Source: Chitinophaga pinensis
GTDB taxonomy: Bacteria; Bacteroidota; Bacteroidia; UKL13-3
Assembly (NCBI GenBank): GCA_945861965.1
Contig: CAMAWM010000024.1
Coordinates: 1 to 32,309 of the forward strand
Length of the DNA: 32,309 bases
Direction: 5' to 3'
Position numbers and translations under genes: made by a program. The notes under the pieces were generated by a model that was not told where the DNA came from, did no database searches, and was given only the letters and a program-made list of their open reading frames with translations. Shown piece by piece: positions 484-29,453 of the stretch. Positions within the stretch are counted from its first letter, which is position 1, and every line of letters begins with the position of its first letter.

Positions 484-520
484 CAAATTTAAACCTTTGT
501 AAGTATAGGATTCCTTACAA
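484..520. other. Inverted repeat at the mutS 3' end, with a possible cas1 -7 box
   Basis: A perfect 7-bp inverted repeat (TTGTAAG at 497-503, CTTACAA at 514-520, 10-nt spacer) overlaps the mutS stop codon. Just beyond it on the minus strand is TAAATTTG (complement of 484-491), a full match to the Bacteroidota -7 box TAnnTTTG, but with no good TTG 19-20 bp before it. The repeat could be a weak terminator for mutS (followed by TTTAAATTT rather than a clean T run) or an operator at a cas1 promoter. The 369-514 gap holds nothing else I can identify. Confidence 0.3.
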
Positions 521-13544: not shown

Positions 13545-14669
13545 CTATTTAACTTTTTCTAATTCCATTCCGCAAATCTTGCATTTCCCAGGTTCGTAGC
13601 CTCCTCCGCCTTCGCATTTCATCGTGCACGCATAATAGCTTTTTGCATCCGATGGAATTTCACAAGTTGGGGCTTTTACAAAAAATCTATATGCAACACC
13701 AAATATAAATTGATGTTGAGAAGCAAGCTGATTTCCATATACATTTTCATACAATGGCAATTCATACAAACCATAAAATGTTAAAGATTTGTAATTGAAA
13801 TTAATTTGTGGAACAAATGTAATTTTTTCGCTTCCTGTAGAAGTTGAATTAACATTGTAAAGAGCTAAAAGATCTACATTTTCTGCAGCTTCCAATTTGC
13901 CAATCTGTTCGCCTTTAATTTGAAGTGTAATGCCAAGATTGTTGAAAAAAGTTTTTCCGGCAAACAACCCAACAGATGCATAATCGCCAAATTTTTCGCC
14001 TAATGAATTCCAACCTCTTCTTATATAAATTGTATTTGCAAATACTCTGAAATTCTTTTGAGTAAATCCTTTGAAAAAAAATGCATATAATATGATGTCA
14101 TTTGAACCGTTTGTTGGTTGAACCAATGGGGGCGAAACAGTAAAAATTTGCTGTCCGGAAATAGGATTTGTATATACAAGAGTAGAGTCGTTGTGTTTAC
14201 CAAGTGGAATTTTATATCCTAAACCAAGTGTAATTTCAAAGCGTTTTTTTTCGGTTACGCGATTTACTATATCAAACTTTGGAAAAATAATTAAGTCTGC
14301 AATTCCTGATGATTCTATTTTTTCGGATTTGCTTAAAACCGCATCGTAAAATCCTGTTTGAATTTTATTGAAAAAGTATCCTGATTCAATTGATATTGTG
14401 AAATCTTTAGTTACTCCATAAGCAATTTTAGAGTAATTGTAATTGCTGTTATAGTTATCGAATAATTTCGGAGTAAATTTGTCGCCTGTTTTGAATTTAT
14501 TGCTACTGATATATTGAAAATTACTTGAAATTTCAACTTGGCCAGCTTGTAAAACGCCTTGTGTAGCTCCTCCAGCGATAGGACTTCCACCTCCACCGGC
14601 ACAACATCCTTGCGAATAAATTTTAATTGAAAATAAAATTATGGAAAAGAAGAGAATAAATACTCTCAT
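13545..14669 (-). CDS. Outer-membrane barrel protein with a C-terminal heavy-metal-binding domain
   Basis: The 374-residue protein has a signal peptide (about 1-19), then a short Cys/Gly-rich start of the mature protein (QGCCAGGGGSPIAGG). About 300 residues of beta strands typical of an outer-membrane barrel follow. The end is a heavy-metal-binding domain at about 344-371: Cys348-x-Met350, Cys352, Cys363-x-x-Cys366-x-Met368. That Cys/Met pattern is the one used by small copper/silver- or zinc-binding domains near CusAB-type pumps. Its place behind the thioredoxin-like gene (31-base gap) and the split efflux pump suggests a role in metal sensing, capture or release at the outer membrane. The barrel family is not identified; it may be related to transporter-type proteins seen beside metal efflux genes in Bacteroidota. 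Confidence 0.75.
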   Translation of the reverse strand: MRVFILFFSIILFSIKIYSQGCCAGGGGSPIAGGATQGVLQAGQVEISSNFQYISSNKFKTGDKFTPKLFDNYNSNYNYSKIAYGVTKDFTISIESGYFFNKIQTGFYDAVLSKSEKIESSGIADLIIFPKFDIVNRVTEKKRFEITLGLGYKIPLGKHNDSTLVYTNPISGQQIFTVSPPLVQPTNGSNDIILYAFFFKGFTQKNFRVFANTIYIRRGWNSLGEKFGDYASVGLFAGKTFFNNLGITLQIKGEQIGKLEAAENVDLLALYNVNSTSTGSEKITFVPQINFNYKSLTFYGLYELPLYENVYGNQLASQHQFIFGVAYRFFVKAPTCEIPSDAKSYYACTMKCEGGGGYEPGKCKICGMELEKVK

Positions 14670-14700
14670 GATTTAATATTCTCTTTAAAATAAATTCAAA

Positions 14701-15465
14701 TTATCGTGTAATAGTAACCTTAACTATTTCAAACGATTCGCCTGTATTAAGTTTGATAAAATAAGAACCAACACTTAGGGATTCTAAATTTATTTCGTAC
14801 GATTGAATTCCAGCTGATTGTTTTCCGATTGAAATAGATTTTACTTTTTCGCCTAAAATATTTGTTATTTCAATACTTACATTAGTTGATGTATTTAATG
14901 AATAATTTAAAATTGCATTGCTTACAATTGGATTTGGAAATACAGTTGCTTTTAACTTAGTGTTTTTTTTTTCGTCAATTGCGGTACCTGCGCTTAAAGC
15001 AGAATTGATTGCAGCTTGCAAAGCACTTTGTGTGATGGTTCCATTTTGATTGAAATAAACGGAATGGCTACTTGCTCCAAGCACTACTGTTTTAGGCATT
15101 CCTGGTGTTCCATAACTACTCATGCTAATAGCAGAGTTTGAAAAATTAGCAGTAAAAACAATGTTATTCGAACTTGCCCAACTTCCAATTGTGCTACACG
15201 AATTGTCAGCATAATCGTCACACAAATAGAAAACAACTTTTGGGTTTGCAAATCCTATAACAGTATTTGCGGCAGTTAATGCTGCTGGAATGCAAGCTCC
15301 GCAGGGCATTACCCAACAAATTACAACAACTTTTCCTGCATCAAGTTCTGTGAAAAGTGTGTGAGGGTTTCCTGCGCAATCATTGGCAGTCCAATTGGTA
15401 GCAGATTGAGAAAAACTTAGAGCAATTGCTAAACATGCAATAGAAGATAGGATTAATTTTTTCAT
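14701..15465 (-). CDS. Thioredoxin-like protein with T9SS sorting domain
   Basis: This 254-residue protein has a signal peptide (about 1-20) and a compact thioredoxin-fold region with the active-site motif PCGAC (Cys55 and Cys58). A TPGMPKTVVLG segment near 118-128 supplies the cis-proline loop. A Por-secretion tail follows (FPNPI near 176 and VGSYFIKLNTG near 235). I infer a surface or secreted thiol oxidoreductase delivered by the type IX system. It follows the N-terminal half of CusA but has its own strong promoter, so it need not depend on the pump operon. The neighbourhood suggests a role in thiol protection or metal handling outside the outer membrane. Confidence 0.82.
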   Translation of the reverse strand: MKKLILSSIACLAIALSFSQSATNWTANDCAGNPHTLFTELDAGKVVVICWVMPCGACIPAALTAANTVIGFANPKVVFYLCDDYADNSCSTIGSWASSNNIVFTANFSNSAISMSSYGTPGMPKTVVLGASSHSVYFNQNGTITQSALQAAINSALSAGTAIDEKKNTKLKATVFPNPIVSNAILNYSLNTSTNVSIEITNILGEKVKSISIGKQSAGIQSYEINLESLSVGSYFIKLNTGESFEIVKVTITR

Positions 15466-15494: not shown

Positions 15495-15525
15495 CAAAAT
15501 TAATAGATTTTAATTTTAAAACAAA
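15495..15525 (-). promoter_or_regulatory. Bacteroidota-type promoter for the thioredoxin-like gene
   Basis: TAATTTTG (complement of 15495-15502) matches TAnnTTTG, and TTTG (complement of 15522-15525) lies exactly 19 bp upstream. It fills most of the 71-base gap after the CusA N-half stop codon at 15537. Confidence 0.65.
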
Positions 15526-15536
15526 ATGTATTAAAA

Positions 15537-16805
15537 TTATTCGTTCAATTGTGCTTCGCTTAAATGTCTGTATGAATTTTCAACCATAACAATTGTATCG
15601 TCAACTATAACACCAATTGCCAATGCAATTCCAGTTAGCGACATAATATTTGAAGACAATCCCATTAGATTTAATAAAATAAAACTAGATGCTACTGAAA
15701 TGGGAATTTGAATGAGGATAATAATTGCACTTCGCCAATGAAAAAGAAAAATTAAAACAACAATTGACACACTAATAAATACTTCAATTAAAGTTCCTTT
15801 TACCGAATTGATGGCTTCCTCAATCAAGCTACTTCTATCGTAATCAATTTTAAATTTCACACCTTCGGGCAAACCTTTCTGAATTTCTACAATTTTCGAT
15901 TTAACATTTTTTATTACGGCATCTGCATTTTCACCGTAACGCATTACAACAATTCCACCAACCGTTTCTCCCTCACCGTTTTTGTCAAAAATTCCATAGC
16001 GTAAATCACCGCCCATTTGCACATTTCCAACATCTTTTATTCTGACAGGAACATTGTTGTTTGTAGTTAGCGATATGTTTTCAATTTCAGCAATTGATTT
16101 AATGTAACCCAATCCGCGTACTATGTATGATTTGTCACTCATTTCGAATTTTCTTCCACCTACATCGTTGTTGTTAGATTTCACTACGCTCAAAATATTT
16201 ATCATAGACAGGTTGTAATAATTCAGTTTTATTGGATCAATCACAATTTGATATTGTTTTTGAAATCCACCAAAAGATGCAACTTCACTTACACCTGGAA
16301 CTGTTTGTAATGCTAACTTGATATACCAATCTTGCAATGCGCGTTGCTCGCCAAGATCATATCCTTTTGCATCTAACGAATACCAAAATATGTGGCCAAC
16401 ACCTGTTCCATCAGGACCCAATGTTGGTGAAATCCCTTCGGGCAATAGTTTTTGTGCAAAGTTTAATCTTTCAGTAACTCTTGTTCTTGCCCAATAAATA
16501 TCAGCATTGTCTTCAAATATTAGATACACGAAACTCATTCCAAACATTGATGATCCTCTTATGTTTTTTAGTTTTGCAATGCCTTGAAGATTTGAAACTA
16601 GAGGATAGGTTATTTGATCTTCTATAACTTGAGGACTTCTCCCCATCCATTCAGTAAAAACAATTACTTGGTTTTCTGAAAGATCAGGAATTGCATCAAC
16701 CGGATTGTGATTCATTTCGTAAATACCCCAAGCAAACATTCCTGCAGAAATTAGCAATACGATTAATCGATTGCGTAATGAAAATGATATAAGTTTTTTT
16801 ACCAT
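15537..16805 (-). CDS. cusA: CusA/CzcA-type RND efflux pump, N-terminal half (separate ORF)
   Basis: The 422 residues match the first 40 percent of a heavy-metal RND permease and then stop. TM1 is at about 11-30, followed by the signature region PVDAIPDLSENQVIVFTEW. The porter-domain segments present include TLGPDGTGVGHIFWY, VPGVSEVASFGG and NNNDVGGRKFEM. TM2-TM4 follow (about 338-410). Asp402 in IVDDTIVMVEN corresponds to the proton-relay Asp405 of E. coli CusA. Translation ends 12 residues past that motif, in the cytoplasmic TM4-TM5 loop. The missing remainder is encoded by the ORF at 20451-22349, which lies upstream in the same operon. The gene begins 9 bases after the second adaptor stop codon. 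After its stop there is only AT-rich sequence with the next promoter, and no decayed cusA remnant. It cannot work alone because the metal site and the other relay residues are in the other half. Confidence 0.92.
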   Translation of the reverse strand: MVKKLISFSLRNRLIVLLISAGMFAWGIYEMNHNPVDAIPDLSENQVIVFTEWMGRSPQVIEDQITYPLVSNLQGIAKLKNIRGSSMFGMSFVYLIFEDNADIYWARTRVTERLNFAQKLLPEGISPTLGPDGTGVGHIFWYSLDAKGYDLGEQRALQDWYIKLALQTVPGVSEVASFGGFQKQYQIVIDPIKLNYYNLSMINILSVVKSNNNDVGGRKFEMSDKSYIVRGLGYIKSIAEIENISLTTNNNVPVRIKDVGNVQMGGDLRYGIFDKNGEGETVGGIVVMRYGENADAVIKNVKSKIVEIQKGLPEGVKFKIDYDRSSLIEEAINSVKGTLIEVFISVSIVVLIFLFHWRSAIIILIQIPISVASSFILLNLMGLSSNIMSLTGIALAIGVIVDDTIVMVENSYRHLSEAQLNE

Positions 16806-16814
16806 GTGTTTGTT

Positions 16815-18020
16815 TTATTTTATTGTTTCAGACATGTTCTTGTGTTCAGCCATTGAATTAGTTCCTTTCTTAAATACATACTCGCTGTTGAGCAAATATG
16901 ATCCAGATACAACTACAGTCTCACCAACTTGTAAACCATCAACAATTTCAATTTGTGTGCTGTTTTGCATTCCCAGTTTTACCCTTCTGTTTTCAAATAC
17001 ATCATCCTTGTTTCGAATCCAAACATATGCACCTTTACTGTCTTGAATTATTGCGTTTATCGGAAGTGCTAAAGTTTTTTTCATTTCAGTTTTCAAAGTA
17101 ATGTTTGCTAACATTCCTGGTTTTATTTGTTGCGTTGGATTTTGTATTTGAAATCTTGTTAACACAAAACGATTGGGCGATTGTACTTGTGGTTCGATAA
17201 AAATTACTTTGCCTAAAAACAATGTATCACTCAATGAAGGAATATTGAAATGGGCTTCAGTTCCTATTTTTAAATAGGATAAATAGGGAAGATACACTTG
17301 CGCTTCAACCCAAAGCGAATTGAAAGATGCAAGACGAAAAAGTGTTTGTCCTGTTGTAACATAATTTCCTTCGGCAACTGAAAGTTCGCTAACAAAACCA
17401 TCTATTGATGAATAAATTGAAATATTTTGCAATGCGTTTTTCGAACTTTTTAATTGATTGATTTGAAATTCATTCATTCCATACAACAACAATTTATTTT
17501 TTGATGCAACAATCAATTCTTCTGAAACAGATTTCTGAATAGCAAGTATGTAATCCAATTGTGCTGCGTTTATGTCTTCGCTGTAAATTTCATAAAGCAA
17601 TTGACCTTTTCTTATATAATCACCACTATTTTTTACTGCCAATTTTTCAATTCTCCCTTGAATTTTAGTGCTGATGGCATTGCTTAGATTTTGGTCAAAT
17701 GTTACTTTTCCGGTAAGCATAATTTCTTTTGTCAAATTACTAATCCGAAGCGTATCAAATGTAATGTTGGCTAATTTTATCTGTTGAACGCTCAGTTTTA
17801 TTTGTCCCGCTTTGAGGGTATTTTTTTTAGCTTTAATTAATTTCATGTGACAAATTGGACAAATCCCGTCTTTGTTTTCTATTACTTGCGGATCCATAGA
17901 ACAGGTATAATATTCATCAGAGTTTGATAGCACAGAATGATTCTCATGATTGTTGCAAGAAGCCAACAATAGCATGCTTGATATAAATACCAAAAAAAAT
18001 ATTTTTCTATTCATTTTCAT
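16815..18020 (-). CDS. cusB: RND efflux periplasmic adaptor with N-terminal heavy-metal-binding domain (CusB-type)
   Basis: This 401-residue lipoprotein has the lipobox LLAS-C with Cys22. A heavy-metal-binding domain follows at about 37-62 (Cys40-x-Met42, Cys54-x-x-Cys57-x-Met59). The membrane-fusion-protein body comes next: a barrel-sandwich segment (KIQGRIEKLAVKNSGDYIRK), a helical hairpin and a beta-barrel (GTEAHFNIPSL), with the membrane-proximal region near VVSGSYLLNSEY. It should bridge the inner-membrane pump and the outer-membrane factor and bind Cu/Ag-like ions before transfer. It overlaps the upstream adaptor gene by 14 bases. Methionine 3 (18014) is an equally possible start. This is the second of two tandem adaptors; CusB-type complexes use six adaptor chains per pump trimer, so a mixed ring is possible. 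Confidence 0.92.
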   Translation of the reverse strand: MKMNRKIFFLVFISSMLLLASCNNHENHSVLSNSDEYYTCSMDPQVIENKDGICPICHMKLIKAKKNTLKAGQIKLSVQQIKLANITFDTLRISNLTKEIMLTGKVTFDQNLSNAISTKIQGRIEKLAVKNSGDYIRKGQLLYEIYSEDINAAQLDYILAIQKSVSEELIVASKNKLLLYGMNEFQINQLKSSKNALQNISIYSSIDGFVSELSVAEGNYVTTGQTLFRLASFNSLWVEAQVYLPYLSYLKIGTEAHFNIPSLSDTLFLGKVIFIEPQVQSPNRFVLTRFQIQNPTQQIKPGMLANITLKTEMKKTLALPINAIIQDSKGAYVWIRNKDDVFENRRVKLGMQNSTQIEIVDGLQVGETVVVSGSYLLNSEYVFKKGTNSMAEHKNMSETIK

Positions 18021-19257
18021 TTGATTTTATGAAACTCTCACTGTCTACCAAATATTGCGCATTGGCTGCAACTTTTTCATCTAGTTTTAATCCTGAAATT
18101 ATTTGAATTGTAGTATCCGTTTCAAAGCCAGTTTGAATAGTTTTGGCAATGAAATTGTTTTTGTTTTTTAAAAACACAATTTGTTTTTTTCCTAAGTTGA
18201 TAACTGCATTTCGAGGCAACCACATTCCGTTTATTTCACTTGTATAAATTTTTGCAGAAAGTAATGTTCCAATTTTAAGTTGAAGATGCTGTTCGTTTTG
18301 CAAATAAACTCTTGCTTTAATTGTAGAAGAATTTTGTCCTACAACTGGTTCGATGTAGTGAATGTTGGAAGTAATAACATTGTTTGGATTTATTTCTGAA
18401 CTAATCTGAACTTTATCGCCAACATCTATAAATGCTGCATCTTTTTGAAAAATAGTAAGCACTCCCCAAACCTTATTTGTGTTGTAAACTGAAAAAATGG
18501 CTTGCCCACTTGTTAAATACATGCCTTCTTTAATAGTAAGTGAAAAACTTTGCGATGTAGTTTGATTTTCAATTTCAATTGGATTTGATTCCGAATCAGA
18601 ATTTCCCATTTTCGAATTCATTCCATTGTTTAATGATGCTGAAGAAATAGCTTCACTACTTATTCCAATATCGTGAATATGGCCGCTGTATGGACTATAG
18701 ATTGGTAATGGATTTATTGCTTGTTTCGAAGTTTCAATTTGAATTAATTGTTCGTTTGTTATACCCAATAATTTTAATTTTTGTTTTGTTGATTGTATAA
18801 GTTCAATATCATTTGAAGAATTTTTCAGCAGATAAATAAAGGCATGTTGTGCAGCTAAAATTTCAGTGCTATTAATGTCCATAATTCGCTGACCTTTTGA
18901 AACATTTTCAAAATTGAATCGTACATACAGTTTTTCAATTCTTCCATTAAATCTTGCGCTGATATTATTGATTAATTGTGGATCGTATTCAATAATCCCA
19001 TTTGCTTGTAATATTGGATTTAACTTTTGTTGTGTTGCTGAAATAGTTTTTATTTCACTAAACACAGTTTGGTTTGTACTTTTCACCAATTCATTCAATT
19101 CGTTTGAACTGTTTGTTTGAAAATGTTTATGTTCATTTGCGTCATTGCACGAACAAATAGCGACAAGCAAAAGAAAATAAGTGAAATGCACTATCGCCTT
19201 TTCTAAATTGCAATTGAATGTAGCAGATTGATTATCTAATTTCCATTTCTCTTTCAT
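18007..19257 (-). CDS. RND efflux periplasmic adaptor subunit
   Basis: This 416-residue adaptor has the typical core: ISARFNGRIEKLYVRFNF (lipoyl-like half), a helical hairpin around residues 130-175, a second lipoyl half (PIYSPYSGHIHDIG), a beta-barrel (VGDKVQISSEIN) and a C-terminal membrane-proximal region (VAANAQYLVDSES). The lipobox-like AICSC near residues 33-37 suggests lipid anchoring. The first ATG gives an unusually long polar leader before it; an internal GTG just upstream of HFTYFLLLVAIC would give a more usual signal peptide. Unlike its neighbour it lacks the heavy-metal-binding domain. It overlaps the outer-membrane-factor gene upstream by 26 bases and the second adaptor downstream by 14, showing tight translational coupling. 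Confidence 0.9.
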   Translation of the reverse strand: MKEKWKLDNQSATFNCNLEKAIVHFTYFLLLVAICSCNDANEHKHFQTNSSNELNELVKSTNQTVFSEIKTISATQQKLNPILQANGIIEYDPQLINNISARFNGRIEKLYVRFNFENVSKGQRIMDINSTEILAAQHAFIYLLKNSSNDIELIQSTKQKLKLLGITNEQLIQIETSKQAINPLPIYSPYSGHIHDIGISSEAISSASLNNGMNSKMGNSDSESNPIEIENQTTSQSFSLTIKEGMYLTSGQAIFSVYNTNKVWGVLTIFQKDAAFIDVGDKVQISSEINPNNVITSNIHYIEPVVGQNSSTIKARVYLQNEQHLQLKIGTLLSAKIYTSEINGMWLPRNAVINLGKKQIVFLKNKNNFIAKTIQTGFETDTTIQIISGLKLDEKVAANAQYLVDSESFIKSNENE

Positions 19258-20464
19258 AATCCACTTGTAATTTTAACAGTGTTCCTAATTGTTCTAATTT
19301 ATTCATAGTTGCCATTCGATACATTTTCAATCCATCTAAAACTACAAATAAATCTTCCTTGTTTTGGCCGTATGCAATCAATGAAGTTTGGTAACTTTTG
19401 TAATATGTTGGAATGATGTTTTCTGAAAAATTTGTTAACTGTTGTTTTGTTGATTTGATTTGTGTTTGCAACGAAGCAATCGTTCCGGCAGTTTCATTTA
19501 GCAGAGCTTGTTTTTGTAAATTAATTGCATTGCTTGTGTTGTCTAAGCCTTTGATATTCGACTTAAATTCCTTTGAAGCCCATGGTGCAATTGGAATTGT
19601 TAGCATTCCCATTGCTGAGTATAATTTAGGCATAGGTTCCTCTCGTAAAGATTGCATGTGCGAAACTGAAATTCCGAAATCTGGCAATTGTTTTGATTTT
19701 TCATACTGCTGTTTCAGTTTTACTATCCCAATGCTAGCATCAAATTGTTTGATATCGCTTCGTGATGATGAAATAAGTGCAGTATCTATTAATTGTAATT
19801 CGTAATATTTTAAACTCAAATTTGTATCCACATCAAACGATATTGATTTATCAAAATTCATTAATGTGTTTAGTGCTACATTTTTTATTTGCATCTCACC
19901 TAACATCATTGTTTCCAAATTGCGTAGTTCAAATAAATCTGCTTGCGCTTTGTAAATGTTGTTCAGTTTTTCTTTGTTGTAAGTGTAACGGATTTGTGAA
20001 ACCTGAATGATGTAATTCAGCAACGAATCAGTTTGTATCAATACATCTAATTTCCTTTTCAAAACAATCCACTCAAAATAAGTATGTTTTGCCATTGCAA
20101 ACATTTCATTTTTTTTGACCGACTTTTTTTGTTTCTCAAATGGAGCCATGCCTTGCATGTATTTATAGTTTGCTTTTTGTTTTGCAGGATTTGGAATCAT
20201 TTGTGCGCCTGTAATCATCCACATTCCTTCTCTAATATTTGTGTAAGGTGTTTGCCATGTTCCTGTTGATAGAGTAGGAGACATCCAACTTTTTGCAGTT
20301 TGCGAGTAATTGTTTACCGCATTGATTTGTTCGTCATACATTTTTAGCATAGGATTATTTTTCTCTATACTATTCAGAATAGAATCTAAGCTTAGTGCTT
20401 GTCCAAATGTTTGAATCGAACCAGTGCAAATAAGCAGTAGAAATATCAATTTAAATTTCTTCAT
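19232..20464 (-). CDS. TolC-family outer-membrane efflux protein (CusC-like)
   Basis: The 410-residue protein has a signal peptide (about 1-21, ending QTFG). It continues with the long amphipathic helices and two similar halves of the outer-membrane-factor fold: LDSILNSIEKNNPMLKMYDE at the start and long heptad-like helices near 120-180 and 310-370. It would form the trimeric channel of a tripartite metal efflux complex. The chain is Met-rich around residues 78-128 (REGMWMITGAQMIPNP, MQGMAP), possibly suited to soft metals. It overlaps the C-terminal CusA half by 14 bases and the first adaptor by 26. Confidence 0.9.
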   Translation of the reverse strand: MKKFKLIFLLLICTGSIQTFGQALSLDSILNSIEKNNPMLKMYDEQINAVNNYSQTAKSWMSPTLSTGTWQTPYTNIREGMWMITGAQMIPNPAKQKANYKYMQGMAPFEKQKKSVKKNEMFAMAKHTYFEWIVLKRKLDVLIQTDSLLNYIIQVSQIRYTYNKEKLNNIYKAQADLFELRNLETMMLGEMQIKNVALNTLMNFDKSISFDVDTNLSLKYYELQLIDTALISSSRSDIKQFDASIGIVKLKQQYEKSKQLPDFGISVSHMQSLREEPMPKLYSAMGMLTIPIAPWASKEFKSNIKGLDNTSNAINLQKQALLNETAGTIASLQTQIKSTKQQLTNFSENIIPTYYKSYQTSLIAYGQNKEDLFVVLDGLKMYRMATMNKLEQLGTLLKLQVDYEREMEIR

Positions 20465-22349
20465 TTTTTCCTGGTAATATTATTTTGCCATGTTTTTTTA
20501 ATTCTCTTTCTTTCGCCATTTCGTAAATAATTGGCGTAACTAACAATACATAAATTGTAGATGTAACAACTCCTCCAATTAATGGAAGTGTGATTGGCAA
20601 CATTACATCGCTACCAGTTCCAGTTGACCAAAGAATTGGTATCAATCCAAACAACGAAACAGAAACGGTCATCAATTTTGGTCTTAAGCGTTGCACTGCG
20701 CCATTCATTATATATTTTCTTAAATCAATAGTTGAAATTGTAGCAGATGAATTGCCTTTGTCTGCAATTAATTTTTCCATGTATTCATTCAGGTAAATAG
20801 TCATGAGCATAGCAGTTTCAATTGCTACTCCAAATAATGCAATGAAACCAACTGCAACTGCAACAGACAAATTCACTCCATAAAAATAAACCATAAATGC
20901 ACCGCCAATCAATGCAAACGGAACGGTAATCATTGTTATCAAAGCTTCTTTCAAAGATTTGTAAGTAAAATAAAGCACCATGAAAATTAGAATGAAAACA
21001 ATTGGCATTATCATCATTAAAGTATTGTTTGCTCTGATTTGATTTTCCCATTGTCCGCTCCATTCAAGTGAATAACCTTTAGGAAGTTTTGAAAACATTT
21101 TGTTCAATTTATCTTGCGATTCTTTAACAGTACTTCCTAGATCTCGGTTGCGAACATTGAACAAAACTGTACCGCGCAACATGGCATTTTCAGAATTTAT
21201 CATTGGAGGCCCTTCTGAAATGGAAACGGAAGCAACAGCTGAAAGTGGAACAGTTCCATAATCATTTGTTTTGATAGGAATTTGTTTAATCGCTTCCAAA
21301 CTATTTCGATAATCTTGTGCAAATCGTGCATTCACAGTATAGCGTTCTCTGCCTTCAATTGTAGTTGTAATATTCATTCCGCCCAAAGCAGTTTCAACAT
21401 ACATATTGACATCATCTACACTCAATCCGTATTTTCCAATTTCGTCTTTCTTAGTTTTAATATCTACATATTTTCCACCAGTGATGGGTTCAACATATAA
21501 ATCTTTAATGCCATTTATTCCTTGAAGTTCGTTTTTGATTAAAGTTGCAAGTGCATGGATGGAATCAATATTTTGCCCGTAAACTTTTAATCCTACATCC
21601 GTTCGTATACCAGTTGATAGCATATTTATACGATTGATAATAGGCTGTGTAAATCCATTAACTACACCGGGTATTTGCAACTTTGCATTTAACTCATTTA
21701 TAATATCATCTTTAGTTAATCCATTTCTCCATTCTGATTTTGGTTTCAATAGTATAATTGTTTCAATCATACTTATTGGAGAATTGTCAGTGGCTGTATT
21801 TGCTCTGCCTGCTTTGCCTAAAACATTTTCAACTTCAGGAACCGACTTGATAATTTTATCCTGCACTTGTAAAATTCTTTTCGCCTCTGAGTTTGAAACA
21901 TCAGGCAATGTTACTGGCATAAAAAGTATTGAACCTTCATCCAACGGTGGCATAAACTCAGTGCCCATTCTAAACATCATTGTACAACCAATAAGTAAAG
22001 CAATTAGGTTTATTGTCAATACAGTTTTACGCCATTGCATACACCACAAAAGCAATGGCGAATAAATTTTTTCTAAAGTGCGAGTAACAGGATTTGAATG
22101 TTCGGATTTTAGTTTTCCTTTTAGAAAAATTGATATCAATATTGGCGTTAATGTAATAGCAAGAAATGCATCTATAATAAGTATAAAAGTTTTTGTCCAA
22201 GCCAGCGGATGAAAAAGTTTTCCTTCAATTCCGGTTAGCAAAAAAACGGGTAGAAAAGAAGCAATTACTACAATTGTTGAGTAAAATACTCCTGGTCCAA
22301 CTTGCTTTGAGGATTTAGAAATGATATGTAATCTTTCCTTTTTATCCAT
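20451..22349 (-). CDS. cusA: CusA/CzcA-type RND efflux pump, C-terminal half (separate ORF)
   Basis: The 632 residues correspond to CusA from just before TM5 to the C-terminus. It begins MDKKERLHIISKSSKQVGPG, then TM5-TM6 with FLPVFLLTGIEGKLF, TM7, the second porter domain and TM8-TM12. The three methionines of the E. coli CusA Cu(I)/Ag(I) site are present with the same spacing: Met144 (FMPVTLP), Met194 (SMIET) and Met243 (INML), matching Met573/623/672. Glu511 (GVAIETAML) and Lys558 (RLRPKLM) match proton-relay residues Glu939 and Lys984. The first half of the pump is a separate ORF five genes downstream (15537-16805). This ORF starts one base after the stop of the small metal-binding gene (TAAAATG), so it has a proper coupled start rather than looking like a broken 5' end. 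A start further upstream is not available without overlapping that gene. Confidence 0.93.
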   Translation of the reverse strand: MDKKERLHIISKSSKQVGPGVFYSTIVVIASFLPVFLLTGIEGKLFHPLAWTKTFILIIDAFLAITLTPILISIFLKGKLKSEHSNPVTRTLEKIYSPLLLWCMQWRKTVLTINLIALLIGCTMMFRMGTEFMPPLDEGSILFMPVTLPDVSNSEAKRILQVQDKIIKSVPEVENVLGKAGRANTATDNSPISMIETIILLKPKSEWRNGLTKDDIINELNAKLQIPGVVNGFTQPIINRINMLSTGIRTDVGLKVYGQNIDSIHALATLIKNELQGINGIKDLYVEPITGGKYVDIKTKKDEIGKYGLSVDDVNMYVETALGGMNITTTIEGRERYTVNARFAQDYRNSLEAIKQIPIKTNDYGTVPLSAVASVSISEGPPMINSENAMLRGTVLFNVRNRDLGSTVKESQDKLNKMFSKLPKGYSLEWSGQWENQIRANNTLMMIMPIVFILIFMVLYFTYKSLKEALITMITVPFALIGGAFMVYFYGVNLSVAVAVGFIALFGVAIETAMLMTIYLNEYMEKLIADKGNSSATISTIDLRKYIMNGAVQRLRPKLMTVSVSLFGLIPILWSTGTGSDVMLPITLPLIGGVVTSTIYVLLVTPIIYEMAKERELKKHGKIILPGKNEEI

Positions 22350-22350
22350 T

Positions 22351-22608
22351 TTATTTTTCTTCTACAAGTTGTAAATCCATATTGCAAACTGGGCATTGAA
22401 TAAGCTCTGTGTAAGTTTTTCCTTTTTCACAATCCATTGGGCATTGATAATGCACATTGCTTTTATTTTGCTCAACCTGATTCGTGCTATCTCCAAGTAG
22501 TTTATTTTCTAGTGGTTTATTATTCCCGCATTTTCCGCAATTGATATATACTGTTGTTCCTATTGCTATTACTGCAATCAAAACGATAATTAAATTTCGT
22601 GATTTCAT
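22351..22608 (-). CDS. Membrane-anchored heavy-metal-binding domain protein
   Basis: This 85-residue protein has one N-terminal membrane helix (about 5-22) and then a periplasmic CGKC (Cys24, Cys27). A C-terminal heavy-metal-binding domain follows: Cys56-x-Met58, Cys60, Cys72-x-x-Cys75-x-Met77 (YQCPMDCEKG and CPVCNMDL). The likely role is to capture Cu/Ag-type ions and hand them to the efflux pump, a CusF-like job done by a different fold. It ends one base before the CusA C-half ATG. A terminator-like hairpin separates it from the HYC_CC_PP gene upstream. I see no TAnnTTTG box in its own leader, so it probably depends on read-through or an unrecognised promoter. Confidence 0.85.
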   Translation of the reverse strand: MKSRNLIIVLIAVIAIGTTVYINCGKCGNNKPLENKLLGDSTNQVEQNKSNVHYQCPMDCEKGKTYTELIQCPVCNMDLQLVEEK

Positions 22609-22697: not shown

Positions 22698-23069
22698 TTA
22701 AACTAAAATGGAGCGAAAATCAATAACCCGATCTAAAAATTTCGGGGGAGGGGAGTGGTTGTTTTTAAGTACCGAATAGTTTTTGAAACTAATTTTAGGT
22801 GTAAATTCAAAATAAATTATAGCAGAAGAAAAAGTTGTTTTTGCAAGATGAAATTCGAATGCAGGTGAATAATCTGAATTAACTTTTACATAGTTAGTTT
22901 CATTCTTGCAACAGTTTTCTGGCATTGATTTTTCATCATCGCAGCAACTTTTCTTTTTTATCACCCCAACGGATTCAAGTTTGCCTCCACAATAATGCGA
23001 ATGAATATTAATTCCAATTGCGCTAGCAAGAAATAAAATAGATAGAAATATGGAAACTACTTTTTTCAC
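22698..23069 (-). CDS. HYC_CC_PP family small exported protein
   Basis: The 123-residue protein starts at a GTG (no ATG fits) and has a signal peptide (about 1-19). The defining marks of this Bacteroidota family are visible: HYC (HSHYCGGK), CC (KKSCCDDE, again NCCKNE) and a late PP (HSPPPKF). Such genes typically sit next to heavy-metal efflux operons; the cysteine/histidine-rich mature part suggests metal binding in the periplasm, but the function is not established. A strong promoter precedes it and a terminator-like hairpin follows, so it may be made in excess over the pump genes. Confidence 0.88.
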   Translation of the reverse strand: MKKVVSIFLSILFLASAIGINIHSHYCGGKLESVGVIKKKSCCDDEKSMPENCCKNETNYVKVNSDYSPAFEFHLAKTTFSSAIIYFEFTPKISFKNYSVLKNNHSPPPKFLDRVIDFRSILV

Positions 23070-23086: not shown

Positions 23087-23116
23087 CAAAAGTAAAACAT
23101 ATTTATGTTTTTACAA
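23087..23116 (-). promoter_or_regulatory. Bacteroidota-type promoter of the metal-resistance region
   Basis: TACTTTTG (complement of 23087-23094) matches TAnnTTTG, with TTG exactly 19 bp upstream (complement of 23114-23116). The box ends 18 bases before the HYC_CC_PP start. It lies in the 81-base gap after moaCB, separating the molybdenum-cofactor and metal-efflux transcription units. A second TAAATTTG overlaps the start codon but lacks a -33 partner. Confidence 0.65.
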
Positions 23117-23150: not shown

Positions 23151-24068
23151 TTACTGCTTGTCGTGGCTTTCGCCTTTTGCAACTTTAAAAATATGAAGAA
23201 TATACGGAAACAATGAATCCATAGTTTCTTCAGCACCTTTTGTAGAACCCGGAAGTGTTAAAGTTAGTGTATTGCCAATCATTCCTGCAACTCCTCTAGA
23301 CAGCATAGAATATGGAGTTCTATCTTGTCCAAAACATCTTGCGGCTTCCATAATTCCTGGAATTTCTCTATCCAAAAGTGGTTTGATAGCTTCTGGAGTA
23401 ACATCGCGTTTTGACAATCCAGTTCCACCAGCGAAAATTAACAAATCATAATTTTCAGCCGAAAAATATTTTGCCTTTTGTTGAATTATTTCCAATTCGT
23501 CAGGAATAATTTCATAATCGGAGTTTTTTATTCCGCATTTTTTTAATTTTTCAATAATGGCTTTTCCTGCTTTGTCGTGTTTTTTACCAGCTGATATGCT
23601 GTCAGAACAAACAATAACAATTGCTTTTAATTCGCAATTTAAAATATCTATGAAATCTGATTTTCCTCCCTTTTTTTCAATTAATTGTATTGCTGAAATT
23701 TCAATTTTTTTATCAATTGGTTTCAACATATCATACATCGTTAGCGCTGTAATTGCTGCTCCATGCATAGCTTCAACTTCAACACCTGTTTTGTAAATCG
23801 TTTGAACCGCTACTGTAATCAGTATTTTCAACTCGTCTATTTCCGAATGAATAGTTGCAAATTCGACAGGCATTGGGTGGCAATCAGGTATTACATTGCT
23901 GGTATTTTTAATCGCCAATAAACCTGCAGCTCTTGAAAACTCAAGTACATTTCCCTTTGGAACTTTATTGTTTTTAATTGCATCAATCGTTTCTTGTGTG
24001 CTTACTTTTACAATTGCTTGAGCAATTGCAGTTCGTTTAGTATTTATTTTTCTTGTTATGTCAATCAT
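23151..24068 (-). CDS. moaCB: Bifunctional molybdenum cofactor protein MoaC-MoaB
   Basis: This 305-residue protein fuses two Moco enzymes. Residues 1-145 are MoaC, which completes cyclic pyranopterin monophosphate formation after MoaA; the marks are IPDCHPMPV, TGVEVEAMHGA, ALTMYDM and KKGGKSD. Residues 147-300 are MoaB/MogA-like, which adenylylates molybdopterin; the marks are AIVIVCSDS, the GGTGLSKRDVTPEA loop, EIPGIMEAAR and TLPGSTKGAEE. The fusion is known in Bacteroidota and some other bacteria. It is the last gene of the Moco operon and overlaps moaE by 4 bases (ATGA), so translation is coupled. Confidence 0.95.
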   Translation of the reverse strand: MIDITRKINTKRTAIAQAIVKVSTQETIDAIKNNKVPKGNVLEFSRAAGLLAIKNTSNVIPDCHPMPVEFATIHSEIDELKILITVAVQTIYKTGVEVEAMHGAAITALTMYDMLKPIDKKIEISAIQLIEKKGGKSDFIDILNCELKAIVIVCSDSISAGKKHDKAGKAIIEKLKKCGIKNSDYEIIPDELEIIQQKAKYFSAENYDLLIFAGGTGLSKRDVTPEAIKPLLDREIPGIMEAARCFGQDRTPYSMLSRGVAGMIGNTLTLTLPGSTKGAEETMDSLFPYILHIFKVAKGESHDKQ

Positions 24069-24526
24069 AATTCAATTGATTTATTAGCATTTGTTTTCCA
24101 TTGAAAACTTTCGTCTTCAAAAATTTCCTTTCCCCAAATAGGTACTTCTTTTTTTATTCTTTCAACTAATTCATTGCAGCCTTCAATTGCAGCTTTTCGA
24201 TGTTTGGATGAAGTGAAAACAAACAGACTTATTTCTCCGACATTTACCGTACCAATGCTATGATAAATATGCATGCAGGTTAATTCATACTTGTTAAAAG
24301 TAGCCTCTCTTATTTCGTGCATTTTTTCTTCGGCCATTTCAGTATATGCTGAATAGTTTATAGCAATTACCTCTCGTTCATTTATCCTATCATTTCTAAC
24401 CTGCCCAAGAAAAATACTGTGTGCTCCAATGCTTTTTTTTGTGCTGTGTTTTGCAATTGAATCTCCAACAAATTCTGGAGAAATTGCACCTTCAACAAAT
24501 ATTTTTTTTATTTTTTTTGATTCCAT
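24065..24526 (-). CDS. moaE: Molybdopterin synthase catalytic subunit MoaE
   Basis: The 153-residue MoaE forms the heterotetrameric molybdopterin synthase with MoaD and puts the dithiolene sulfurs onto cyclic pyranopterin monophosphate. Family signatures are HSIFLGQVRND near 36-46, HSIGTVNVGE near 89-98 and the HRKAAIEGC helix. The catalytic lysines are Lys126 and Lys133 (ERIKKEVPIWGKE), spaced as Lys119/Lys126 in E. coli. It starts 2 bases after the moeB stop and overlaps moaCB by 4. Confidence 0.95.
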   Translation of the reverse strand: MESKKIKKIFVEGAISPEFVGDSIAKHSTKKSIGAHSIFLGQVRNDRINEREVIAINYSAYTEMAEEKMHEIREATFNKYELTCMHIYHSIGTVNVGEISLFVFTSSKHRKAAIEGCNELVERIKKEVPIWGKEIFEDESFQWKTNANKSIEL

Positions 24527-24528
24527 AC

Positions 24529-25659
24529 TTAAATGTGGATTTTATTTTGGTGTTTTTTCCATTCTATAATTCCACCGTGTAAGCTGCTTACAGATGCATT
24601 AGGGATTATTTTATTAATGATTTTTACAGCATTTAAACTTCTTATTCCAGTTTGACAAAATACAACAATTGTATCAGCAATTTTAAGTGCCGAAATCTTT
24701 TCTTCAAGTTCATTCATTGGAATTTTAATGTTTGGAAACTCGCTTACAATTGGCAATTCACTCAATTCGCGAACGTCAATTACTGTAATCTTGTTTCCTG
24801 CTATTAAAAGATCAAAATTTTCAGCTGATATTTCATTGCTTACATGGCTTACGCCACAAATCCAATCATAATTAAATGCTAAAAATTCTTTCTCGTTTTT
24901 CGGCATTTTACTTTTTGACTTTTCGTCTGAAAAAATCTCGAACTCATGCATTTCATTATTTAAGACATTGTACGAAATTATTTTGTTGCAAATGGGTTTC
25001 CCAATGCCTGTTATAATTTTTATAGCTTCTGTTGCTTGCATGGTCCCAATTAACGCTGGAACTACACCCAAAACTCCTGCTTCGTTGCAAGATAAAATTG
25101 TGTTTTCAACTGGAGGTTCTGGAAACAAATCGCGGTAATTTGTTTTGATATTAGAATTGTTTTCTTCAAAATTAAAAACACCAACTTGACCTTCGAAGCG
25201 CAATACTGCCCCATAAATAAAAGGTTTGTTTAACAAAACACAAGCATCGTTAATTAAGTAGCGTGTCGAAAAATTATCAGAACCATCAATAACTAAATCG
25301 TACGCTGAGATTATTTCAAGAGCATTTTTATTTTGTAGTTTTAGGTTGAGTATATTGATTTGAATATCCGGATTTAGTTGTTTAATTCTTTCTGCTGCTG
25401 TTTTCACTTTTGATTTTCCGATGTCGTCAGTTGTGTAAAGAATTTGCCGTTGAAGATTTGAAATATCAACTACATCAAAATCAACAATTCCGATTGTGCC
25501 AATACCAGCTGCAGCAAGATATTGTAAGGCTGGACATCCCAAACCACCCGCTCCAATAATAAGAACCTTTGCATCAAATAATTTAATTTGTGCTGCAACT
25601 CCAAACTCTTTTAGTTGAATTTGTCTTTGGTATCTTAAATGGTTTTCAGTCGAGAGCAT
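24529..25659 (-). CDS. moeB: Molybdopterin-synthase adenylyltransferase MoeB with rhodanese domain
   Basis: The 376-residue protein activates the MoaD C-terminus by adenylylation. Residues 1-240 form the ThiF/MoeB domain: nucleotide loop GAGGLG (36-41), DGSDNF (125-130), YRDLFPEPP and the conserved Cys191 in SCNEAGVLG. Residues about 288-372 are a rhodanese domain with active-site Cys335 (CQTGIRS), which can supply sulfur for MoaD thiocarboxylate. The Zn-binding cysteine pairs of E. coli MoeB are missing (YRDLF where CYRCLF is expected), apparently usual in Bacteroidota homologues. The domain fusion resembles eukaryotic MOCS3/Uba4. It lies 11 bases after moaD. Confidence 0.93.
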   Translation of the reverse strand: MLSTENHLRYQRQIQLKEFGVAAQIKLFDAKVLIIGAGGLGCPALQYLAAAGIGTIGIVDFDVVDISNLQRQILYTTDDIGKSKVKTAAERIKQLNPDIQINILNLKLQNKNALEIISAYDLVIDGSDNFSTRYLINDACVLLNKPFIYGAVLRFEGQVGVFNFEENNSNIKTNYRDLFPEPPVENTILSCNEAGVLGVVPALIGTMQATEAIKIITGIGKPICNKIISYNVLNNEMHEFEIFSDEKSKSKMPKNEKEFLAFNYDWICGVSHVSNEISAENFDLLIAGNKITVIDVRELSELPIVSEFPNIKIPMNELEEKISALKIADTIVVFCQTGIRSLNAVKIINKIIPNASVSSLHGGIIEWKKHQNKIHI

Positions 25660-25670
25660 TTTTTCGTTTT

Positions 25671-25904
25671 TTATCCTCCAGAAAATGGGGGCAAAAGAGC
25701 AACAATATCACCCATATTAATTTCCGTATTTTTATTAATATTTTTTTTGTTTATAGCAATTCCATAACTTATTTCGTTCAATTGTGGAAACGCATTTGAC
25801 AGTTTTTTTCTCAACTCTTCTGTATCTTTTATTTCGTTTATCGACATTATCGAATTCCCAATAATGTCCGCAATTTGTCCGAATGCTATTATTTTTATTT
25901 CCAT
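25671..25904 (-). CDS. moaD: Molybdopterin synthase sulfur-carrier subunit MoaD
   Basis: This 77-residue beta-grasp protein ends in the required Gly-Gly (LLPPFSGG), which is adenylylated by MoeB and converted to a thiocarboxylate. The start IKIIAFGQIADIIG and the GDIVALLPP loop are typical. Its ATG overlaps the mobA stop by one base (TAATG). Confidence 0.95.
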   Translation of the reverse strand: MEIKIIAFGQIADIIGNSIMSINEIKDTEELRKKLSNAFPQLNEISYGIAINKKNINKNTEINMGDIVALLPPFSGG

Positions 25905-26494
25905 TACATAAGTTGACTTAAAGCGCGTTCAAAATCTTTCTTTGTATTTAAATTCAAAAATAATTTATCGCCAAATAAATCATTTTGATCGAAATCAATT
26001 TTCTGCAAATTGAAATGAGTTACAAGCGTTTGCAATTTGATAATATTTTGAAGGATAAGTTTTTCCCATTTTGCTAAACAATCTTTTGAATAAAGTCCAA
26101 ACAAAGGTTCTATTTTATTTTTATGAATTGCTAAATTTATTTGTGATGAGTTTGCTTTTTGAAGCAGGAAATTAATAGCGGAAGTAGTTACAAATGGCAT
26201 ATCGCAACTCATTATAAAGTTCTGATTTGTATGGGTATGTTTTAATGCAGTATAAATTCCACCAGCCGGTCCAATATCTTTTATCAAATCAGGAATTAAT
26301 TCGAATCCAAATTTTTCATATTCTATATTATTTGAAATTATAAATATATTTTTTACCGATTTCTCAAGTTGTTCAAAGGCATGTTGAATTACTGCTTTTT
26401 TATTTAGTAGCATTAATCCTTTATCGCTTCCCATTCTTGAGCTTTTTCCGCCAGCTAAAATATATCCAGATATGTTATTTTCAATTTGCTGCAT
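25904..26494 (-). CDS. mobA: Molybdenum cofactor guanylyltransferase MobA
   Basis: The 196-residue nucleotidyltransferase has the signature GYILAGGKSSRMGSDKG near 11-26, DIGPAGGIYTAL near 72-83 and SCDMPFV near 95-101. MobA attaches GMP to Mo-molybdopterin to make bis-MGD for DMSO-reductase-family enzymes; a cytidylyltransferase role (MocA) is less likely given the MobA-type motifs but cannot be fully excluded. It starts 3 bases after the TauE-like gene. Confidence 0.9.
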   Translation of the reverse strand: MQQIENNISGYILAGGKSSRMGSDKGLMLLNKKAVIQHAFEQLEKSVKNIFIISNNIEYEKFGFELIPDLIKDIGPAGGIYTALKHTHTNQNFIMSCDMPFVTTSAINFLLQKANSSQINLAIHKNKIEPLFGLYSKDCLAKWEKLILQNIIKLQTLVTHFNLQKIDFDQNDLFGDKLFLNLNTKKDFERALSQLM

Positions 26495-26497
26495 GAA

Positions 26498-27229
26498 TTA
26501 GGTTAACATTAATTTAATACTTGCAATAAGTAAAACTACAGCTAATATTTTCTTTAAAAATGTTGTGTCAAATTTCTTAGATCCTAAATAAGAACCTAAA
26601 ATGCCGCCACAAATTGCAATTGCAATCATCCATCCCATTTCAATTTTAAATTCAAATCCATTGTTAAACAAACCTGCGAATCCAGCTAAAGAATTTACAA
26701 AAATAAACAATGCAGAAACGGTAGCAGTACGTTTCATATCTGCCCAATGCAACAAAAGAATAATTGGGCTTAAAATTATACCTCCGCCAATTCCAATCAA
26801 TCCTGAAAAGAAGCCAATGATTCCACCAATAATTAATGCAAGCTTGAAATTAATTTCTTTGGAAATAGTTTCAGTTTGAAATTTAAACCCAAAAAGTTTT
26901 ATGATTGGAAATAATAAAAAAACGGCTAATATTTTTTTATACAAATCAGCATCAATTGATATTAAGCCACCAAGATAGGCTGCAGGAATTGAGGCCAAAG
27001 CAAATGGATAAAATAATTTCCATTGAAAATATCCGCTTCGATAATATTGTGTAAATGCGATAAGCGAAACAAAAATATTTAACATCAATGCAGTTGGTCG
27101 CATGGTTTCAGGAGCAGCCGCAAAAAATATCATTAAAGCTAAATAACCACTTGCGCCACCATGTCCAACGCTAGAGTAAAGCAATGCTATGACGAATAAT
27201 AAAAGATAAAAAATCACTTCGCTGTACAT
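26498..27229 (-). CDS. TauE/SafE family sulfite/organosulfur exporter
   Basis: The 243-residue integral membrane protein has about eight hydrophobic helices in two related halves. The family's glycine-rich signatures are SSVGHGGASGYLALM near 19-33 and GLIGIGGGIILSPIILL near 143-159. Members move sulfite, sulfoacetate or related anions, mostly outward. It is embedded between moeA and mobA with gaps of 13 and 3 bases, so it is clearly part of the Moco operon. I infer a link to sulfur-anion chemistry of a molybdenum enzyme such as a sulfite dehydrogenase located elsewhere, or movement of another oxyanion; the sequence alone does not decide. Confidence 0.88.
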   Translation of the reverse strand: MYSEVIFYLLLFVIALLYSSVGHGGASGYLALMIFFAAAPETMRPTALMLNIFVSLIAFTQYYRSGYFQWKLFYPFALASIPAAYLGGLISIDADLYKKILAVFLLFPIIKLFGFKFQTETISKEINFKLALIIGGIIGFFSGLIGIGGGIILSPIILLLHWADMKRTATVSALFIFVNSLAGFAGLFNNGFEFKIEMGWMIAIAICGGILGSYLGSKKFDTTFLKKILAVVLLIASIKLMLT

Positions 27230-27242
27230 CTGTTTTTATTGA

Positions 27243-28418
27243 TTATATAATCATTCTTACCTTAACAAAATCGCCTTTATTGAAATCAATTTTTTCTTCT
27301 TCTAACTCAATTATGCAATTAGCAAAAGCAAACGAATTCATTAAATAACTTTCCTGTTTTTCTAAAATTTCAACTTCTTTTAAATCCGTTTTCCCTTTTA
27401 ATATAAAAGTAAGGGACGATTTTTTTATGTAGGAATTTGCCAATGGTAAATTTAACGCTTCAAAATATTTTTTCTTTGTAAAAGTGCTAATGGCATCAAC
27501 AATGTATCTGTAAAAACAAGTTAAAACTGCTGCAGGATTTCCTGGCAAAGCAAATACTAAAGTAGTATCCATTTTCCCAAAATAAAATGGCTTTCCTGGT
27601 TTTTGTTTCACTTTATGAAACACCTTTTTTACGCCACATTTTTCGAGTGCCGATACTACAAAATCATAATCTCCAACCGATACGCCACCAGTTATTATTA
27701 AAATATCAGTATGTATTTCTTTTGAAATTGCATGTATAATATCCACTTCAATATCGTCAACAATATTGACTGAAATAGGCGATATGTTTAGTTGATTAAG
27801 TGCTGCAATTAATCCAAACGAATTTGATTCGTAAATTTTTCCTTCAGTAATTTCATTGCCTGGCTGCACCAATTCTTTTCCAGTTACAATAATGCTGATT
27901 GTAGGATTAGAAAAAACTTTAATTTTATCAATTCCTGTTCCTGCTATAAATGAAATAGAAGCAGGTGAAAGTAAATGCCCAACATCTAAAATACATTCGC
28001 CTTTTTTAGATTGTGATCCTTTCAATCGAACATTTTTTCCTTGTATAAGTTGTTCGTCTTTTATGCTAATTGAATTGTTTGAAACAATTACATTTTCTTG
28101 TATTACAACTGTGTCAGCGCTTAATGGTAATGCCGCTCCGGTGTAAATACGAACTGCTTCATTTTGCACTAATTTATTTGATGAAAAACTTCCTGCTTGT
28201 ATTTCTGAAGTTATAGTTAAAATGCTTTTTTTATCCCAATCAGAAAATGAAAACGCATATCCATCCATTGCTGATTGATCGAAAGGAGGTGTATCTATTT
28301 TTGAAAAAATAGCTTCGGCTAAAACGTACCCGTAAGCATCTTTTACATTCAACAACTTAACTTTTGTTGTCGTGCAATTTTCATATATTAATTTTTCTGC
28401 TTCTGATACTTTTTTCAT
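27243..28418 (-). CDS. moeA: Molybdopterin molybdotransferase MoeA
   Basis: I start this at ATG 28416-28418 (391 residues, MKKVSEAEK); a frame extends 4 codons further to 28430. MoeA inserts molybdate into adenylylated molybdopterin. Signatures are DTPPFDQSAMDGYAF near 43-57, GGVSVGDYDFV in the MoCF domain, QKPGKPFYFGK and ALPGNPAAVLTCF. The C-terminal domain IV is present. It follows moaA by 51 bases and precedes the TauE-like gene by 13. Confidence 0.95.
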   Translation of the reverse strand: MKKVSEAEKLIYENCTTTKVKLLNVKDAYGYVLAEAIFSKIDTPPFDQSAMDGYAFSFSDWDKKSILTITSEIQAGSFSSNKLVQNEAVRIYTGAALPLSADTVVIQENVIVSNNSISIKDEQLIQGKNVRLKGSQSKKGECILDVGHLLSPASISFIAGTGIDKIKVFSNPTISIIVTGKELVQPGNEITEGKIYESNSFGLIAALNQLNISPISVNIVDDIEVDIIHAISKEIHTDILIITGGVSVGDYDFVVSALEKCGVKKVFHKVKQKPGKPFYFGKMDTTLVFALPGNPAAVLTCFYRYIVDAISTFTKKKYFEALNLPLANSYIKKSSLTFILKGKTDLKEVEILEKQESYLMNSFAFANCIIELEEEKIDFNKGDFVKVRMII

Positions 28419-28469
28419 CTTCAAAACCAATTACAAAATATTTAAAAGAAAGATTGATGATTAAGAAAA

Positions 28470-29453
28470 TCAGCCACCAATGTTAATCATGCTTCTATTG
28501 TTAATTTTTGTTGCATCTGTTTTTTTATAAGCCGATGTAAACTGACCTCCCAATGCTTTTTCTTTATCTGCAACGCATTGTTTTATTAATGGAAGTATAT
28601 CGTTTCCATTTCTCAATGCACTTAAAATATCTACTTCGTTATTAGAGAATAAACAGTTTTTCATTTTACCGTCTGTGGTTAATCGCATACGATTACAACC
28701 GCTACAGAAGGGTTCGCTCATGCTACTTATTACAGCAAAAGTGCCTTTGTGTCCTGATACAAAATATTTCTTTGCCGTATCATTTTTTTCGTTGATTAAT
28801 TTTATGTAATTATATTTTGTTGCTATTAAATCTAATATTTCTTTGAATGAAAAAACTTTGGTATTGTCCCATTTATTTCCTTCAAATGGCATGAATTCAA
28901 TAAATCGGACATGTATATTTTCATCTTTTGTCCAGGCAATAAAATCAAGTATCTCATCATCATTCATGTTCTTCATTACTACTACATTTATTTTTACATG
29001 AAAATTATTTTGTAGCAATAGATTAATATTATCCTTTACTCTGTCAAATTCATTTCGTTGAGTAATTGAAAAATTTTTATCTTTTTTAAGTGTGTCTAAA
29101 CTGACATTTATTGAGTGAATCCCAGCTTGTTTAAATGTTTCGATAAAATCATGAACAAATACACCATTTGTAGTAATAACTAATTCAACTGGATATTTTG
29201 ACAATCGAAGTAGAATGTCTTTGGCATCTTTTCTAACCAATGGTTCGCCACCAGTAATCCGAATTTTTTTAACGCCTTCGTTTACAAAAACGGAAGCGAT
29301 TTTATCAATTTCATCTGCTGACATTCGAACAGCACCTGCAAAAAAATCTTTTGGCAAATCAATAGGATTGCAATATGTGCAACGCAAATTGCATTTGTCG
29401 GTGAGAGAAATTCTCAGGTAGTCATGATTGCGGTCAAAGGAGTCTTTAAGCAT
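28470..29453 (-). CDS. moaA: GTP 3',8-cyclase MoaA (radical SAM)
   Basis: This 327-residue enzyme performs the first step of Moco synthesis from GTP. The N-terminal radical-SAM cluster is Cys21-x3-Cys25-x2-Cys28 (CNLRCTYC). ITGGEPLVR follows near 64-72. The C-terminal [4Fe-4S] cluster ligands are Cys250, Cys253 and Cys267 (FCSGCNRMRL and NCLFS). The C-terminus is the conserved Gly-Gly. It heads the Moco operon; upstream, TAACTTTT with TTTG 21 bp before it is a 7/8 match to a Bacteroidota promoter but is not convincing enough to call. Confidence 0.96.
   Translation of the reverse strand: MLKDSFDRNHDYLRISLTDKCNLRCTYCNPIDLPKDFFAGAVRMSADEIDKIASVFVNEGVKKIRITGGEPLVRKDAKDILLRLSKYPVELVITTNGVFVHDFIETFKQAGIHSINVSLDTLKKDKNFSITQRNEFDRVKDNINLLLQNNFHVKINVVVMKNMNDDEILDFIAWTKDENIHVRFIEFMPFEGNKWDNTKVFSFKEILDLIATKYNYIKLINEKNDTAKKYFVSGHKGTFAVISSMSEPFCSGCNRMRLTTDGKMKNCLFSNNEVDILSALRNGNDILPLIKQCVADKEKALGGQFTSAYKKTDATKINNRSMINIGG

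Follow-up and report, generated by a model that had tools for sequence, protein, structure and literature searches.

A permease gene of the CusA type was found to be divided into two open reading frames (ORFs) that lie in reversed order at the two ends of their own operon, within the 32,309-nucleotide stretch of DNA analysed here (the window). The pump genes are all on the minus strand and their order in the transcript is the C-half of CusA, an outer-membrane factor (OMF), two periplasmic adaptors (MFP) and the N-half of CusA. Comparison with related loci makes it quite probable that the products form a two-chain HME-RND Cu(I)/Ag(I) permease, the chains of which would associate after synthesis into one protomer, with a history of gene fission, reordering and spread as set out below.

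Organisation of the operon and the two CusA halves

The genes of the operon and its immediate neighbours were assigned as follows:

22698..23069, minus strand: small protein of the HYC_CC_PP family (NF047658, E=2.9e-17), with an upstream homologue in most relatives
22351..22608, minus strand: lipoprotein-like ORF with HMBD, 85 aa (Pfam HMBD E=6e-4, under the curated cut-off)
20451..22349, minus strand: CusA C-half, 632 aa, TM5 to the C-terminus (Pfam, TIGR00914, CusA alignment)
19232..20464, minus strand: outer-membrane factor (TolC/CusC-like), 410 aa (Pfam OEP E=6e-14)
18007..19257, minus strand: periplasmic adaptor 1, 416 aa (HlyD_D23 E=3e-46; RND_mfp)
16815..18020, minus strand: periplasmic adaptor 2, CusB-like, with N-terminal HMBD, 401 aa (HlyD_D23 E=6e-59; HMBD E=2.5e-8; CusB model E=3e-32)
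15537..16805, minus strand: CusA N-half, 422 aa, TM1-TM4 (Pfam, TIGR00914, CusA alignment)
14701..15465, minus strand: 254-aa protein with T9SS sorting tail (Por_Secre_tail E=6e-10), with homologues at several related loci
13545..14669, minus strand: 374-aa protein with C-terminal HMBD (weak match, HMBD E=1e-3), homologues of which adjoin several related operons

These coordinates and family matches confirm an earlier note on this DNA, which had described a split CusA with its C-half and N-half in reversed order around an OMF and two adaptors. The genes are tightly packed: C-half, OMF and adaptors overlap, the ATG of the C-half follows the upstream stop by 1 base, and 9 bases separate the stop of adaptor 2 from the ATG of the N-half. 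The ends are therefore as clean as the note had claimed, and no cusA remnant adjoining either half was detected using tblastn down to E=10. No long repeats common to the two half sites were found. As is characteristic of tripartite RND systems, adaptor and outer-membrane factor are encoded together with the permease, the cluster containing two of the former and one of the latter. Homologues of the 85-aa HMBD ORF are located immediately 5' of the N-half in some unpermuted relatives.

The pair formed by the T9SS-tailed 254-aa gene and the 374-aa HMBD gene (13545-15465) is a recurrent neighbour of such operons across many Bacteroidota, whether before or after rearrangement. Promoter-like motifs of the Bacteroidetes type (TTG N19 TAnnTTTG) occur on the minus strand at 15495-15524, 5' of the 254-aa gene, and at 23087-23116, 5' of the HYC gene, with a per-strand count near chance; a scan for sigma-70 promoters gave no excess over shuffles. 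A molybdenum-cofactor gene cluster (23151-29453) lies upstream of the pump operon and mutS (515-3130) lies downstream.

Jointly, the two halves cover CusA with almost nothing missing or duplicated, which bears out the earlier description of them as complementary. The N-half matches positions 1-426 and the C-half positions 432-1043 of the 1051 positions of TIGR00914, with corresponding ranges of 2-418 and 416-1019 in Pfam ACR_tran. When aligned with E. coli CusA chains in which construct numbers equal native numbers plus 7, residues 1-419 of the N-half correspond to 8-429 and residues 1-611 of the C-half to 437-1044, i.e., 1-422 and 430-1037 in native numbering. The family matches have E<=1e-108, at which chance is not an issue. 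Similarity along the whole permease, as is expected of an HME-RND protein, is provided by the N-half and C-half in combination. Individually, the halves score 468.6 (N-half) and 617.7 bits (C-half) against TIGR00914, each under the curated cut-off of 701.45 bits in a single chain, and for this reason the pair is regarded as a split variant that would work like CusA and not as a standard member.

The methionine triad of CusA (M573/M623/M672) is represented in the C-half by M144/M194/M243. The proton relay D405/E939/K984 is also present in full and is divided between the halves, with D402 on the N-half and E511 and K558 on the C-half. A passage of PMC11213822 lists M573/M623/M672 with R83, E567, D617, E625, and R669 for CusA-type permeases, and the window has the residues of this monovalent Cu/Ag type, R83 being carried by the N-half. 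The triad, D617, E625, and R669 of the C-half and D405 of the N-half are invariant in 86 of 86 rows, while R83 and E567 (C-half E138) are invariant in 20-row alignments and CusA K678 is R here. The window retains E939 and K984, as do nearly all permuted rows. In the permuted homologue L163 the residue corresponding to E511 is K (E939 to K), a point that counts against the explanation preferred here. Other relay changes are E939 to Q in one subclade and K984 to L/I/V in others (L047, L100, L101, L103, L105-L108; L118 (first copy), L126, L132-L135, L138, L165). Such relay-altered lineages may have a different proton coupling or, in some cases, may be inactive.

Split CusA genes in Bacteroidota and the permuted order

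An alignment-based scan recovered at least 576 relatives, and a single-protein scan of the genome contigs gave no match. Neighbourhoods of C-half relatives were retrieved and gene order was then assigned by script. The usual form in Bacteroidota is an unpermuted one, with the N-half ORF immediately 5' of the C-half ORF. In a class-wide sample of 61 close homologues, from 53 of 395 genomes, the C-half frame is 631-728 aa long at 57 loci and the frame is fused at four. Among the 80 loci of another collection, 66 were labelled N-C adjacent by the script, 7 fused, 3 permuted, and 4 unresolved, three of the last having an N-half ORF just upstream. Named isolates of Runella, Haliscomenobacter, Hymenobacter, Mucilaginibacter, and Fibrella also carry two-ORF CusA genes on complete plasmids, where several loci adjoin copper-related genes (e.g., multicopper oxidase, copper P-type ATPase); database annotation gives both plasmid ORFs as efflux RND transporter permease subunit, without comment. 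The split predates the reordering and is much more widespread.

At every locus compared, the break point is in the TM4-TM5 loop. The spacing between N-half and C-half ranges from overlap to 755 nt, without fixed frame relation. Given that the two ORFs overlap in about half of the unpermuted loci, by 4 nt in 33 of 132, it could be proposed that unpermuted halves are joined by programmed frameshifting or readthrough and that the permuted lineage lost this joining. However, spacing and frame vary freely, with the ORFs more than 100 nt apart in 10 of 132 loci, a pattern that speaks against programmed frameshifting as the general rule. Fusion by this route is also impossible in the permuted lineage, where both halves are nonetheless conserved, and joining of this kind is judged very unlikely.

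The earlier note had proposed looking for the C-half to N-half order in close relatives, and C-OMF-MFP-MFP-N was indeed found in nine other genomes, each time on a single contig (G160, G303, G422, G385, G327, G278, G592, G607, G873). These genomes were independently assembled and the permuted set spans at least two classes. The order is also present in the public records PLYJ01000173 (palsa_967), CAIMUP010000065, and CAMDSC010000011, which are apparently identical with three of the nine assemblies. In a tenth genome, G019, the N-half is on a separate contig. The two contigs share a 128 bp overlap (94.5%) inside the HMBD gene 5' of the N-half, and owing to this overlap the operon order is probably permuted here too. 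Relatives of the C-half with 82-88% identity occur in genomes from several families. The spacer between adaptor 2 and the N-half is 9 nt long in the window and reaches 2249 nt in G303, whose spacer contains extra ORFs; an HMBD gene is immediately 5' of the N-half in several permuted loci, as in some unpermuted ones.

Insertions were observed at two of these loci. In G303 (L082, 9393-11329 in flipped coordinates), ORFs of 215 aa and 414 aa are inserted before HMBD-N, and in G019 (L044, 2046-2414) a 122-aa ORF is inserted between the two adaptors. The adaptor and OMF ORFs of L044 start with repetitive leader-like peptides of the LLPIAYCLLP type, seen at several ORF 5' ends, which suggests intergenic repeats that extend the ORFs.

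Phylogeny, selection and rearrangement

The trees included 11 permuted rows, those of the window, the nine other genomes and G019. A maximum likelihood tree of 86 concatenated sequences places all 11 together on a single branch (SH-aLRT 100). A second, carefully built tree with 53 sequences gave the permuted clade a support of 100/100, with its presence in 200 of 200 bootstrap trees, and the clade was also recovered in separate N-half and C-half trees. Pairwise dN/dS in this clade is 0.03-0.05 for both halves, with dS saturated, and lower for the halves than for the adaptors and OMF wherever both could be computed. Purifying selection on both halves is strong.

An assembly or rearrangement artefact had been named as the main rival in the earlier note, i.e., a cusA operon misassembled or collapsed during assembly or binning, and the genome of the window is a draft of 61 contigs, with permuted relatives that are mostly drafts or MAGs. 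Nevertheless, the permuted order recurs on single contigs of nine other assemblies with differing spacers, all 11 permuted rows group in a single clade, and both halves have clean start and stop codons and are under purifying selection, so that an artefact is scarcely credible and is rejected. It might also be supposed that a broken cusA is decaying as a pseudogene, with one or both halves as relics, given that the same genome holds a second, full-length CusA/CzcA-type gene (G000:C2, TIGR00914 1163 bits). This is exceedingly improbable in light of the low dN/dS of both halves across divergent pairs, the retained active-site residues and the persistence of the split form over a large clade.

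Distances for N and C correlate among the permuted rows (r=0.94). Other RND permeases are encoded by the same genomes, which would allow the halves to belong to different protomers and have separate roles, e.g., each pairing with the missing portion supplied by another RND protein. Such an arrangement is highly improbable, as each half supplies part of the relay, both are encoded in one operon, their distances are correlated and re-fused forms exist.

Fused sequences from Pelobacter and from genomes of other classes served as outgroups to root the trees. In the rooted tree, the split sequences make up a single group in which fused forms are nested at two positions, and there are 3 fused/split changes and 1 permuted change. 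With fused forms nested within the split clade under this root, the simplest reading would be a single fission, a single reordering and, later, two or more re-fusions, the direction from fission to re-fusion resting on the root from fused outgroups. Fused cusA genes inside or near the split clade, with linkers that retain both tails (L050/L186, L092/L225, L094, L049, L176, L187, L197, L220, L233), are apparent natural re-fusions; L176, L187, L197, L220, and L233 were left off the tree.

According to this history, cusA would have been split once, in an ancestor in or near Bacteroidota, within the cytoplasmic TM4-TM5 loop, giving adjacent N-C genes before the OMF and two adaptors. HMBD-N-C-OMF-MFP-MFP would then have become C-OMF-MFP-MFP-(HMBD)-N in a single lineage. 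The location of HMBD 5' of the N-half in both permuted and unpermuted loci indicates that HMBD-N moved together or that the permutation of the operon fell between N and C. Thus, of the circular permutation by a cut inside cusA put forward in the earlier note, the permutation stands but the cut in an intact gene does not, as cusA was already split and was permuted at a gene boundary that exists in relatives. The reordering would probably have taken place by tandem duplication of the operon with subsequent loss of N from the first copy and of C-OMF-MFP-MFP from the second, or else by direct translocation of HMBD-N. We infer this route, as no remnants of the copies lost under tandem duplication were found at the locus by tblastn.

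MutS identity to the window is 71% for G019, 61% for G160, and 49% for G592, with C-half identity of 85-88% in the same genomes. L150 (G592) and L151 (G607) are permuted operons from another class, and MutS in these genomes is only 46-49% identical to that of the window. The fall in MutS identity while C-half identity holds supports horizontal spread of the operon between lineages.

Predicted two-chain assembly and known systems

The topology of CusA is established and places the TM4-TM5 break in the cytoplasm, so each chain should be able to insert with native topology. The two chains would be translated separately, inserted in this topology and paired into one protomer, and the usual pump trimer would then consist of three N-C pairs, in complex with the adaptors and OMF. 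Metal would be bound by the methionine triad of the C-half, and proton coupling would involve D402 of the N-half jointly with E511/K558 of the C-half; with the relay split in this manner, neither chain should work alone. We infer two stable polypeptides that assemble in trans and export copper or silver. The predicted product is a trimeric 12-TM permease for proton-driven metal export, its likely Cu/Ag substrate being suggested solely by residue conservation and gene neighbours.

AlphaFold models of the separate halves were mediocre (mean pLDDT of 67 and 66), with lowest confidence at the N-half end, TM3-TM4, which is weakly suggestive of an absent partner. Foldseek returned CusA as top match for both models with TM-scores of only 0.5-0.6. 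Interface arguments from these models were dropped, the models being too weak.

HME-RND permeases are treated as single 12-helix chains, from which a large natural two-chain clade departs. Its two-chain, reordered and re-fused forms represent a natural experiment on RND protomer folding and assembly, and the clade bears on whether a proton relay can function across two chains. It also explains the paired short RND permease subunits listed in many Bacteroidota genomes; such subunits may be misread by one-chain models and length filters as truncated genes or pseudogenes. A more far-reaching proposal is a stable class of two-chain RND permeases, with 4-helix and 8-helix chains made from opposite ends of a transcript, regulation of assembly, stoichiometry or turnover at the level of half-protomers, and selection for the N-last order; this we consider doubtful.

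No description of a split CusA was found in open-licence papers, a scope outside which most subscription journals fall, and the earlier statement that no metal RND pump of permuted layout has been described is consistent with these searches. Passages of PMC11213822 and PMC9864904 that mention CusA in Flavobacteriaceae do so without mention of a split. To the extent of the open-licence literature, the split CusA is filed as a new form of the known CusA pump. The plasmid loci resemble the window in their two ORFs, break point, OMF and two adaptors (three annotated in Mucilaginibacter), but have the N-half directly 5' of the C-half. E. coli CusA (HME-RND, TIGR00914; PDB 3K07, 3NE5) is alike in full coverage, Met triad, D405/E939/K984, and an operon with an OMF and a CusB-like adaptor. 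It is, however, one chain of ~1047 residues, whereas the window has two chains, two adaptors and the N-half gene last. In MdtBC, two genes serve one permease trimer, but MdtB and MdtC are each full-length permeases, while the CusA chains of the window are halves. RND permeases with two different permease genes, such as MdtBC, originated by gene duplication (PMC8277102). The nearest precedent for a two-chain RND protein is SecD/SecF, an RND-type transporter that occurs as one chain or two (PMC8277102). Identity with SecDF was considered and rejected, the best families being ACR_tran and TIGR00914 and the break being at TM4-TM5. SecD/SecF is divided into 6+6 helices at the internal repeat and functions in protein translocation, whereas the predicted metal pump of the window is divided into 4+8 helices, off the repeat.
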